64,000 nucleotides of DNA, from positions 744,001-808,000 of the forward strand of contig NZ_JAJPWV010000001.1 of the NCBI RefSeq assembly GCF_021215455.1, given 5' to 3'. The notes under the pieces are model-generated. The model did not search any database. It saw only the letters and a list, made by a program, of their open reading frames with translations, and was not told the DNA's origin. Source of the DNA: Mucilaginibacter roseus (GTDB lineage Bacteria; Bacteroidota; Bacteroidia; Sphingobacteriales; Sphingobacteriaceae). Below are positions 27,904 through 31,010 of this stretch, piece by piece. Every line of letters begins with the position of its first letter. The first letter of the stretch is position 1. A program made the position numbers and the translations under genes.

Positions 27904-28248
27904 ATGGAGGAGAGCAGGCTACAAAAGCTACTGGCGTTTTTTGAAAACGAACCTAATGACGAGTTTTTAAAATATGCGCTGGCAACCGAATATTTACGAC
28001 TGAACGAAACAGAGAAAGCACTTGCTTATTATGAGGACTTGGTAAACAACCATCCCAATTATACCGGTACTTACTATCACTTAGGCAAATTGTATGAAGC
28101 GCTTAACCGCAAGGACGACGCTATCAACATCTATCAAGCTGGTATGCGCATTACACGCGAAAAGCGGGATAACCATGCTTACTCCGAATTGCAGGCAGCT
28201 TATAATCAGGCAGCTGGTGTATTTGATGACGACGATGACGATTATTGA
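27904..28248 (+). CDS. Small TPR-repeat protein
   Basis: A 114-aa cytoplasmic protein made of about three tetratricopeptide helices pairs: DEFLKYALATEYLRLNETEKALAYYEDLVNNHPNY, then GTYYHLGKLYEALNRKDDAINIYQAGM. It ends in an acidic tail with a run of Asp residues. TPRs mediate protein-protein contacts; the partner is unknown. No signal peptide is visible. Confidence 0.85.
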   Translation: MEESRLQKLLAFFENEPNDEFLKYALATEYLRLNETEKALAYYEDLVNNHPNYTGTYYHLGKLYEALNRKDDAINIYQAGMRITREKRDNHAYSELQAAYNQAAGVFDDDDDDY

Positions 28249-28412
28249 TTTCATTGCTTAAATTGTGTTGATTGAATCAGGATATTCAGCTTTAGTGTTA
28301 ATAAGTCAATGCATTGTATATGTTTATAAGTATGCGTAACTATCTTAATTATAGTCTTTTATTGTGTTTGTAAAATTGTGTAAAACCTGTTTATAATTTC
28401 ATTGATAAAATA

Positions 28413-28444
28413 CTTGACAAGCGTTAATATGGTGTGTACCTTAG
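28413..28444 (+). promoter_or_regulatory. Candidate promoter of the structured RNA
   Basis: CTTG at 28413-28416 and TACCTTAG at 28437-28444 are separated by 20 bases, close to the Bacteroidota -33 (TTTG) and -7 (TAnnTTTG) boxes and their usual 19-21 spacing. Transcription would begin near 28450, directly before the hairpin-rich segment. Confidence 0.5.
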
Positions 28445-28449
28445 TATTA

Positions 28450-28803
28450 TCAAGAACGACGTACTTTGACAACCTCACAGGGAAACAAATAAAAAGACAG
28501 TGAAAGCCTTCGGGCAATTACAGTTTAAAAAGAGTTACCTGAAGCATATTAAAAAATTAATTAGCGAAAGCTGATTAATAAGTAAATATAGCTTAGAGAG
28601 GTCTTGCGGAAATCGCGGCGCTCTACGGAGCTAAAGCGACAAGAAGCAATTGGTAATGTGATGATTTGTGGTTCGCGAGGATTACTTAATCAGGCATACC
28701 GGTCAAAGATCACACAAAACTTGATGTCTCCGGTGGGCTAAGGCTGGCGGGAGATTAAAACGGAAGTTGAATCGAACAGAGGAGACTTCCGTTTTGCTTT
28801 TTA
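28450..28803 (+). ncRNA. Structured non-coding RNA of unknown class, about 350 nt
   Basis: No ORF of note, but a run of hairpins: 28508-28518 with 28534-28544 (11 positions, one mismatch); 28556-28565 with 28570-28579 closed by a GAAA tetraloop; a longer arm closing at TAGCT 28589 and AGCTA 28633 with inner AGAG/CTCT pairing; TTTGTG near 28665 able to pair with CACAAA near 28713; 28727-28738 with 28743-28754 (TAAG loop); and a perfect 11-bp terminator. A promoter-like pair lies at the right distance upstream. The hallmark motifs of RNase P RNA, tmRNA and SRP RNA are absent. A 6S-type or lineage-specific regulatory RNA is possible. A 5' leader of the gene at 28900 is less likely because the terminator intervenes. 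Confidence 0.6.
28757..28802 (+). terminator. Terminator of the structured RNA
   Basis: AAAACGGAAGT (28757-28767) pairs perfectly with ACTTCCGTTTT (28785-28795), followed by GCTTTTT. This marks the 3' end of the RNA and isolates it from the secreted-protein gene downstream. Confidence 0.8.
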
Positions 28804-28899
28804 TGAGGTTTTAGTTTTTGTTGGGGGAAATTTCTTTCCTTTAGGAAAATAAAATGTTGTTGATTGGGTTTTAAATGGTATCAATAAATCATTAATACC

Positions 28900-29610
28900 A
28901 TGAAAACCATCATCTTATCTTTCTTACTGCTTTTTTCATCCGCGATTATTGTCAATGCAGATAATCAAAAATTTTCTCATCATGTAATTAAACATAACCC
29001 GGCACCTGCAATTGAGGGTTGGTATTTTCGCGCTATAAGCGGCTACCCAGCCGCCATTTCTTTTGAACTGGTTGTGCTGTTTAAAAACGGCGAATATTAT
29101 GAGGTAGGAGATGAACCCGTTGAAACGCTCAATATTGCATCATCAAAAAGCGCTCGCCCTAAGGCCTGGGGTAATTGGAAAAAGACCGGCGCTGTATTTT
29201 ATCTCACTAACTCACAAAATAAAACGTACGATTATAAACTTGGGTCAGGCAATTGGTTTCCCGCTTTTGCTTACAGTCCATCGCTACCGTTAAAAAAGGG
29301 TTATGAAAAAACCAGCGGCGGTGATTATGGGAACGGTACTGTTGCGCTCACCATCAATAAAATCAATTTTGTTGATGCAACACATTTTACCACCGGCAGT
29401 AACAGCGGTATATCAACATCAAACGCCGCAGCTGGTAAGGTAACCAGCGCAAAAGGTACCTATAAAATAGCTGCCCATAGCATAACTTTTACTTACGATA
29501 ACGGAAAAACGGTCACTAAATCCTTCGCGATAGGTGCATCCGGTTCGCCGGCTAGGCCAACCAATACGATGATATTTATCGGCGGCGATCCGTTTACCGA
29601 TACCGAATGA
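28900..29610 (+). CDS. Secreted hypothetical protein
   Basis: A 236-aa protein with a clear Sec signal peptide (MKTIILSFLLLFSSAIIVNA), no lipobox Cys, so periplasmic or secreted. The body is beta-rich and aromatic (EGWYFRAISGYPAAISFELV, KAWGNWKKTGAVFYL) with a closing segment GTYKIAAHSITFTYDNGKTVTKSF typical of small beta-barrel domains. I recognise no family. The start codon lies inside a short inverted repeat (ATGGTAT 28875-28881, ATACCAT 28895-28901). Confidence 0.75.
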   Translation: MKTIILSFLLLFSSAIIVNADNQKFSHHVIKHNPAPAIEGWYFRAISGYPAAISFELVVLFKNGEYYEVGDEPVETLNIASSKSARPKAWGNWKKTGAVFYLTNSQNKTYDYKLGSGNWFPAFAYSPSLPLKKGYEKTSGGDYGNGTVALTINKINFVDATHFTTGSNSGISTSNAAAGKVTSAKGTYKIAAHSITFTYDNGKTVTKSFAIGASGSPARPTNTMIFIGGDPFTDTE

Positions 29611-29660: not shown

Positions 29661-31010
29661 ATGGCAAAGGCAGGCAGGAGCAAACCGGCTTCTCAAAAAA
29701 AGATATTTGTACTGGATACCTCGGTTATATTGTACGATCATAACGCTTTGGAAAGTTTTGAAGAACATGATGTAGCCATACCGGTCCAGGTGCTCGAGGA
29801 GCTTGATAACAAAAAGAACGGTAACGATACACGTAATTTCGAAGCCCGCAGCTTTTTGCGGCTGATAGATGATGTGTCGCGCGATAACCTTTTGAATGAG
29901 TGGACGCCTTTAAAGAAAAAAGGCTTGGGCTGCTTTAAGGTAATTATGGATGCCAAGGCCTCAAAGGATGCCGAGGAGATATTTGGCTCTGAAAAAACCG
30001 ACCATCGTATACTCAACGCTGCGTTGAGCATACAGGAAGAATATCCGCAGAAAAAGGTTGTACTGGTATCAAAAGATATATGCCTGCGCCTCAAAGCCAA
30101 ATCGCTGAACATCAATGCCGAAGATTACGAAACCGGTAAGATTAAAAATGTCGGTGAGCTTTACAACGGCGTAACGCAAGTTGATAAAACTACCGAAAAG
30201 TTTATCGGGCAGCTGAATAAGCAACTAACTCTATCAAATGGCATGCTTGCTGATGGCACTTATAAAAGCAACCATTTTTATGTGTTCAACAGTAAAAAAG
30301 CATCCACGCCTGCCTTTTACAATGCTAACACCTTACAGTTGGAAAAGGTGACTGAGCAGCCGGTACTCAATATTTTCCCGCGAAATACTGAGCAGGCCCT
30401 TGCTATACATGCATTGCTGCATCCGGATATCAAGTTAGTGTCAATACAGGGTAATGCCGGCACAGGTAAAACATTGCTTGCTTTGGCCAGCGCACTTGAG
30501 CAGCGCAAATTCTATAGGCAGATTTATGTTACCCGGCCCATAGTGCCGCTTAGTAATAAGGATATTGGGTTTTTGCCTGGCGACGTTAAATCAAAGATAG
30601 ACCCATACATGGCGCCAATATGGGACAACCTTAAATTTATCAAAGATCAGTTTGCCGGCGACGAAAAAATGCAATCAAAAATAGATGAGCTGGTAAGTAA
30701 CGACAAGATAACCATAACGCCGCTGGCCTTTATACGTGGGCGCACACTCAGTAAAATATTTTTTATTGTTGATGAAGCGCAAAACCTTACACCGCATGAG
30801 GTAAAGACCATCATTTCAAGGGCTGGAGAGAACAGTAAGTTTGTATTTACCGGCGATATTTACCAGATAGATACACCTTACCTTGATGCGGAGAGTAACG
30901 GCCTATCATACCTGATTGATAAAGCTAAAGATCATCCGCTCTATGCGCACATCACCCTGCAAAAAGGCGAGCGCAGCGAGCTGGCAAATCTGGCAACGCA
31001 ACTATTGTAG
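29661..31010 (+). CDS. PIN-domain plus PhoH-type ATPase
   Basis: Fusion protein of 449 aa: an N-terminal PIN nuclease domain (about 14-150: FVLDTSVILYDHNALESF, acidic residues in EELDNKK and TDHRIL) and a C-terminal PhoH-like P-loop ATPase with Walker A GNAGTGKT (264-271) and Walker B FFIVDEAQN (about 369-376). Such PhoH2-type proteins act as RNA helicase/nucleases. No antitoxin gene precedes it, so a simple toxin role is not supported. Its 3' end overlaps the convergent FUSC gene by 9 bp. Confidence 0.92.
   Translation: MAKAGRSKPASQKKIFVLDTSVILYDHNALESFEEHDVAIPVQVLEELDNKKNGNDTRNFEARSFLRLIDDVSRDNLLNEWTPLKKKGLGCFKVIMDAKASKDAEEIFGSEKTDHRILNAALSIQEEYPQKKVVLVSKDICLRLKAKSLNINAEDYETGKIKNVGELYNGVTQVDKTTEKFIGQLNKQLTLSNGMLADGTYKSNHFYVFNSKKASTPAFYNANTLQLEKVTEQPVLNIFPRNTEQALAIHALLHPDIKLVSIQGNAGTGKTLLALASALEQRKFYRQIYVTRPIVPLSNKDIGFLPGDVKSKIDPYMAPIWDNLKFIKDQFAGDEKMQSKIDELVSNDKITITPLAFIRGRTLSKIFFIVDEAQNLTPHEVKTIISRAGENSKFVFTGDIYQIDTPYLDAESNGLSYLIDKAKDHPLYAHITLQKGERSELANLATQLL

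Follow-up and report, generated by a model that had tools for sequence, protein, structure and literature searches.

Is the segment at 28413–28803 of this Mucilaginibacter roseus stretch (64,000 nt in full, called the window below) an RNA gene, and if so, what does its RNA work with? The original prediction, made from the letters alone, had seen here an unassigned structured RNA of about 350 nt. By sequence criteria, positions 28448–28802 are a free-standing RNA gene that has a promoter and terminator to itself and a multibranched fold. It belongs to an RNA family that is matched by none of the 4,227 models of Rfam and that we detected in 154 of 301 sampled Sphingobacteriaceae genomes. Unlike the usual orphan RNA, it comes with a lead, one protein whose presence the RNA follows: PIN-PhoH, an RNase fused to a helicase, whose gene lies about 860 nt downstream of the RNA and whose link to it had gone unnoticed. 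We give a probability of roughly 0.6 to the RNA working in trans as a partner of this nuclease-helicase. PhoH2-type proteins are described as highly conserved and poorly characterised (PMC7390352), and a natural RNA partner, if true, would open their function to direct tests.

The RNA gene and its fold

Ahead of the RNA, TTG is followed after a spacer of exactly 20 nt by TACCTTAG, an arrangement which we take to be the Bacteroidota −33/−7 promoter type; the spacing had been predicted and its letters check out. The conserved RNA start, ATCAAG, occupies 28449–28454, and the transcript is expected to start at or beside 28449. TTG with a −7 box at a spacer of 19–21 nt precedes 89 of 98 homologous elements (20 nt in 55, 21 nt in 22 and 19 nt in 12), using box patterns picked after the alignments had been viewed, as against 0.4% of shuffled sequences, and the arrangement is therefore beyond chance. 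At the other end, a terminator stem of 12 pairs (28757–28768 with 28784–28795) runs into the T-rich GCTTTTTA at 28796–28803. Generic scans were uninformative here: a sigma-70 scan of 28000–29200, which excludes the Bacteroidota promoter type, returned 5 promoter-like sites against 3.7 expected, and the terminator was absent from the output of a generic terminator scan, likely because of the 8-nt loop limit of that scan.

Folded as one piece, 28435–28805 reaches −115.7 kcal/mol (z −7.07), and 0 of 100 shuffles were equally stable. Hairpins folded singly are also stable: the terminator has z −4.3, the segment 28726–28756 z −5.1 and the GAAA-capped stem within 28550–28585 z −5.9. The predicted size, structure, terminator and GAAA-capped stem thus all stood, and the predicted coordinates were right to a few bases. 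The parts of the gene are as follows.

28448–28802, + strand: structured RNA gene, identified by promoter, fold, covariation and homologues; ends placed by the −7 box (5′) and by the terminator (3′)
28414–28444, + strand: promoter, with TTG at 28414–28416 and TACCTTAG at 28437–28444
28448–28454, + strand: 5′ strand of helix P1, TATCAAG, pairing with 28720–28726 and closing the whole domain
28455–28471, + strand: AACGACGTACTTTGACA, the best-conserved part of the RNA, which takes in the P1/P2 internal loop
28472–28602, + strand: first arm, in which P4 (ACCTC 28472–28476 / GAGGT 28598–28602) encloses a UUCG-capped hairpin and the GAAA-capped stem
28603–28650, + strand: second arm, helices 10–12, with the UACG-capped hairpin CTCTACGGAG
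28651–28700, + strand: third arm, helices 13–15
28720–28726, + strand: 3′ strand of P1, CTTGATG, placed by pairing and covariation
28727–28754, + strand: 3′ hairpin, helices 16–17, with the loop UAAG here and UACG or UAUG in many relatives
28757–28803, + strand: intrinsic terminator; an inner UC/GA step is conserved, and many homologues have a GNRA cap

Helix P1 unites the 5′ end of the RNA with the site immediately 5′ of the 3′ hairpin. Among the 87 elements with a machine-found terminator, all six P1 pairs are possible in 64, against 14.7 when the 5′ strand is taken from another type, and compensating types such as ATCAAT/ATTGAT, GTTAAG/CTTAAT and AACAAA/TTTGTT occur. The stretch next to it has the consensus AACGA(C/A)GTACTTTGACA, part of which is the P1/P2 internal loop. 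Loops across the family are often of UUCG, UACG or GNRA type, as judged by eye. Element lengths range from 267 to 619 nt (n = 87) and lie mostly near 350 nt, with one group near 610 nt, whose expansion of about 260 nt was placed by eye in the third arm.

The consensus structure has 83 pairs in 19 helices, and 91.0% of these positions are paired in 28 aligned Mucilaginibacter elements, compared with 83.3% (sd 0.4) after shuffling of the 3′ letters and no more than 45.7% after sliding of partners; since the structure came from the same alignment, it has an advantage in the slid control. Changes on both sides occur at 46 of the 83 pairs against 26.8 (sd 2.8) in shuffles, and the covariation score of 0.328 exceeds the shuffled 0.198 (sd 0.006); these shuffles disregard kinship. 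The 28 were taken from 58 Mucilaginibacter elements, the remainder being seven set aside by name and others that were longer than 385 nt, had no machine-found terminator or were later additions. Covariation is strong, and the comparison indicates that the RNA family is under structural constraint.

The family did not correspond to any described RNA that we looked for, in keeping with its having been called unassigned. At gathering level, Rfam 15 gave no match anywhere in the 64-kb window. A scan of the element at lax E-values gave chance matches only (the best, BTnc060, on the opposite strand with E 0.11 and a score of 25.4 against a gathering score of 228.9), and the same lax scan of 20 diverse homologue loci yielded, besides three tRNAs, only a pair of weak matches (E 0.12 and 0.19) and thus no family for the RNA. 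RNase P RNA, tmRNA and signal recognition particle (SRP) RNA had been set aside on the absence of their motifs, and the searches agree: the genome's RNase P RNA lies at C1:963161–963538, with no RNase P match in the window; its tmRNA lies at C1:480494–480862, with no covariance-model or ARAGORN tmRNA match in the window; and Rfam gave no SRP RNA match in the window, the genome's own SRP RNA not having been looked for.

The suggestion of a 6S-like RNA fared less well. As with 6S RNA, the element is encoded by a free-standing gene that has its own promoter. The two 6S models, RF00013 and RF01685, remain below cut-off everywhere in the genome, the window element included, and in the 20 homologue loci. 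6S RNA folds into one long hairpin with a large central bubble, whereas the window RNA is multibranched, with 19 helices, and roughly double the 187-position 6S model in length. A 6S identity is not supported by these comparisons.

In being several hundred nucleotides long, multibranched, conserved and free-standing, the RNA recalls the ornate large RNAs OLE, ROOL and GOLLD, from which it differs in that neither it nor the 20 homologue loci match any Rfam family. OLE RNA has dedicated protein partners. Among the titles and abstract openings of literature on Bacteroidota structured RNAs, Pedobacter and Mucilaginibacter small RNAs and PhoH-linked RNAs, we found no description of this RNA. In another family, a Flavobacterium psychrophilum transcriptome reports 85 newly described RNAs plus 6S, and the word PhoH does not occur in the available portion of that paper (PMC9723704).

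Joint presence of the RNA and PIN-PhoH

A blastn search detected the RNA in 55 of the 61 genomes examined from this genus, counting the window's own; of 39 genomes from other families, 1 had a weak match (E 0.004). With a covariance model built on the 5′-most 100 nt (R1, 31 sequences), 99 of 301 Sphingobacteriaceae genomes were positive at E 0.01. R3, a sequence profile of greater diversity (63 sequences), detected the RNA in 154 of the 301, in 11 of 25 genera, at E 0.001. Three loci matched by R1 (L104, L109 and L112) were read, judged false and dropped. A wider search took in 345 genomes of the class, part of which belong to the family, and gave 7 matches outside the family at E 0.0025–0.009, where about 3 are expected by chance at the threshold applied; in this search, matches outside Sphingobacteriaceae are near chance level. 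A pattern scan retrieved 48 stretches labelled Mucilaginibacter, Pedobacter, Daejeonella or Sphingobacteriaceae, Sphingobacteriales or Bacteroidetes bacterium, plus one labelled Flavihumibacter soli. The RNA was not found in plasmids and phages by blastn or in viral contigs by pattern. Taken on homology, the window RNA is a member of a large, previously unlisted RNA family of Mucilaginibacter, Pedobacter, Daejeonella and their allies.

The protein that the RNA follows is present in 155 of the same 301 genomes. Both were detected in 152 genomes and neither in 144, with the RNA alone in 2 (G103 and G337) and PhoH alone in 3 (G112, G143 and G319), an association with a Fisher p of 4e-80, uncorrected for kinship. 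In Mucilaginibacter, five genomes are listed as lacking the RNA, and the same five are listed as lacking PhoH. A model of the RNA's 3′ domain, built from Mucilaginibacter alone (R2), finds the RNA beside phoH in G112, G143 and G319 (E 5.5e-8, 8.1e-10 and 3e-9), and promoter, ATCAA 5′ strand and terminator are readable at all three loci; R3 had missed them because their 5′ core has diverged. The three PhoH-only genomes thus carry the RNA, and therefore 0 of the 155 PhoH-bearing genomes lack it.

Kinship was taken into account with an rpoB tree. A search of 80 chosen genomes recovered the gene from 75; with one partial match set aside, 74 genomes were left, 72 of them in the family. Two outgroup genomes outside the 301 carry PhoH and are shown as PhoH-minus in the tree; they were excluded from the counts. 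On the initial states, there are 13 changes of PhoH and 15 of the RNA. Nine independent pairs separated by supported branches differ in PhoH, and in these the RNA differs the same way in 8.0, the opposite way in 0.2 and not at all in 0.9 (averages; sign test, median p 0.008, range 0.004–0.125). For the converse comparison there are 10 pairs that differ in the RNA, with PhoH the same way in 7.3, opposite in 0.2 and without difference in 2.5 (median p 0.016). Once G112, G143 and G319 are corrected, each changes 13 times, the agreement becomes 8.7 of 9 and 8.8 of 10 with none (0.0) opposite, and the median p is 0.004; scoring G103 as negative alters the corrected figures little. Across this tree, RNA presence tracks PIN-PhoH through repeated, apparently independent changes.

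One genome, G046, has both genes while lying inside a clade without them. Regain by transfer was considered and fits less well than retention with several surrounding losses: phoH there is followed by a gene whose product resembles, by eye, the FUSC-type protein of the window, and retention is favoured for that reason.

Arrangement and possible function of the pair

How the two genes lie to one another bears on what the RNA may do. The window genes concerned are these.

29661–31010, + strand: PIN-PhoH protein, with an RNase domain (Pfam PIN_4, PF13638, 1.4e-34) and a helicase domain (PhoH, PF02562, 2.4e-49), both over their cut-offs
28900–29610, + strand: intervening protein, encoded between the RNA and phoH and outside the conserved pair; its N-terminus looks signal-like, and it matches no family in Pfam or NCBIfam

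Against the NCBIfam PhoH2 equivalog the window protein scores 261.5 bits, which does not reach the cut-off of 680. Across 125 genomes with both places listed, the RNA lies within 1.5 kb upstream of phoH on the same strand in 92, at 1.5–10 kb in 16 (one on the opposite strand), more than 10 kb away on the same contig in 8, six of these at more than 100 kb, and on a different contig in 9. In the 34 closest distinct pairs the gap from terminator to phoH ATG is 45–167 nt. Two loci read in genus g43 (L102 and L291) have the RNA on the strand opposite phoH. Eleven phoH loci were scanned in genomes that have their RNA elsewhere or kilobases off; R3 found nothing there and R2 a single 12-bit match (L305, E 0.44). 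The RNA probably acts in trans, because it is more than 10 kb from phoH on one contig in those 8 of 125 genomes.

The phoH gene seems, on its upstream letters, to have a separate promoter of its own: of 34 adjacent pairs, 18 have a TAnnTT[TA]G box within 40 nt of the ATG, compared with 4.7% of shuffled sequences. The box starts 12–15 nt before the ATG (14 nt in 10 pairs), and several other pairs have near variants by eye.

The PhoH protein of the family also differs from its relatives. Sixteen positions are fixed in at least 85% of 34 family sequences and are rare in 29 other-family proteins, and family PhoH deviates at 15–27 of about 184 otherwise conserved columns, compared with 0–14 for each of the 29. 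Eight residues (141, 265, 291, 314, 318, 320, 357 and 362) are changed and fixed in the family at positions where at least 86% of other-family proteins share one residue; residue 265 lies in the Walker A region. A family-specific insertion was considered and rejected, with 0 inserted and 0 deleted columns. As an alignment result, PhoH divergence in Sphingobacteriaceae is only suggestive.

Because of the presence pattern, a functional dependence between the RNA and PhoH is likely. In the mechanism that we favour, the RNA would bind PIN-PhoH in trans, and the bound RNA would restrain or direct the protein, in an RNA–protein partnership that is possibly antitoxin-like. Direct contact between the two, which we infer along with its direction, has somewhat better than even odds given these comparative data. 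A restraining, antitoxin-like role is rather unlikely; that the RNA is matured by PhoH or serves as its substrate appears improbable, and that it guides PhoH to targets even less probable. The broadest form of the proposal falls a little short of even odds from what the genomes suggest: a whole bacterial family would have committed its PIN-PhoH to an ornate RNA of its own, which either controls the protein or forms a complex with it. This would be the first PhoH system with an RNA partner; loss of one member would leave the other useless or harmful, and the conserved core of PhoH would have adapted to the RNA.

Several observations weigh against a partnership of this kind. RNA and phoH are mostly adjacent, and joint deletion could mimic a functional link, the counts having been made without a neighbour-gene control. 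The correction of states was one-sided, in that R2 was applied to the PhoH-only genomes while the 144 genomes with neither were left at their first calls, and the tree is a quick single-gene one with 20 of 71 inner branches open. Different contigs may hide linkage in draft assemblies, and phoH is near a contig end in G282, G124 and G244. The 29 PhoH comparators are the best-matching other-family proteins, and the divergence has no control from another protein. The RNA occurs without PhoH in G337 (E 4.6e-7) and G103 (three weak matches, the best 1.5e-4). Finally, PIN-PhoH is present in 42 of 60 genomes of the class (the window's own included), in other families without detected RNA: at 29 other-family phoH loci R3 found nothing and R2 matched twice (E 0.75 and 0.96), and at 24 of these loci less than 330 nt separates phoH from the closest open reading frame (ORF) of at least 100 aa on its upstream side. 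PhoH therefore has no general need of the RNA, which, going by this distribution, looks like a lineage addition to PIN-PhoH.

A special case of the trans-acting partnership is a type III-like toxin–antitoxin system, with PIN-PhoH as the toxin and the RNA as its direct antitoxin. Like ToxIN, CptIN and TenpIN, most genomes with both places listed have a structured RNA, a terminator and a nuclease gene in a row, here headed by the RNA's own promoter, and an RNA gene followed by a same-strand nuclease gene within 1.5 kb is what we found in the 92 of 125. The asymmetry that an antitoxin predicts is also there, PhoH never occurring without the RNA and the RNA twice without PhoH, though in two cases only, one of them weak. 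Also in its favour, among three relatives searched, repeated GNRA hairpins about 33 nt apart lie inside the RNA of one (L108). The RNAs of type III systems are short pseudoknot repeats and their toxins have another fold, whereas the window has a PIN-PhoH protein and no tandem repeats in 28440–28810. The promoter that phoH seems to have, the distances that can separate it from the RNA and the other-family PhoH proteins with no such RNA detected also speak against such a system, which we consider unlikely.

Mycobacteria offer a protein counterpart, which counts in favour of the toxin–antitoxin reading. Two papers describe mycobacterial PhoH2, likewise a PIN RNase fused to a PhoH helicase, as a toxin that couples sequence-specific RNase with helicase activity and whose antitoxin, PhoAT, is a small protein encoded directly upstream (PMC7390352, PMC4826407). 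In the window, by contrast, the conserved upstream element is a structured RNA with its own promoter.

Another improbable reading is that the RNA is a regulator in trans, or a global RNA of 6S-like type, that has no direct connection with PhoH, its co-occurrence being due to shared ecology or joint deletion. The conserved promoter and stable fold would suit such an RNA, as would the two distinct tandem copies in Daejeonella described below, and adjacency in most genomes permits joint deletion. As neither RF00013 nor RF01685 finds a 6S RNA anywhere in this genome, the 6S role is vacant by search and a 6S-like role is not disproved, although the fold is not 6S-like. A global RNA does not, however, predict that 0 of 155 PhoH-bearing genomes lack the RNA, nor the pairing of genes that lie far apart, nor the paired changes on the tree.

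Most doubtful is that the RNA forms a large 5′ leader or attenuator of phoH whose terminator decides read-through in riboswitch-like fashion: the upstream, same-strand position in 92 of 125 genomes and the short gaps from an intervening terminator to the ATG suit a leader, but the RNA is neither always upstream nor always on the same strand (the distant genomes, L102 and L291), phoH loci with a distant RNA show no local one, more than one RNA copy occurs in 21 of 128 genomes, phoH has a promoter-like box of its own, and in the window a whole gene separates the two.

Intervening genes and variants of the RNA

Among the loci examined, tblastn found the intervening protein of the window beside the RNA only in this genome (L002) and in L003, L045 and L107. 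In G046 a 176-aa ORF lies on the opposite strand between the RNA and phoH (L294:4637–5167, − strand).

In the 128 genomes whose RNA places are listed, there is one copy in 107, two in 20 and three in 1. Three Daejeonella-group loci (L073, L074 and L081) have two tandem, clearly different copies, each alike between species, which by its conservation suggests two lasting roles.

The repeats of L108, a locus of the Mucilaginibacter genome G364, lie within its RNA homologue at L108:1220–1406. There, GNRA-type hairpins recur in four register copies of a 64-nt reference, at spacings of 33, 33 and 57 nt. The repeat is an expansion of a hairpin that is present once in most relatives seen.
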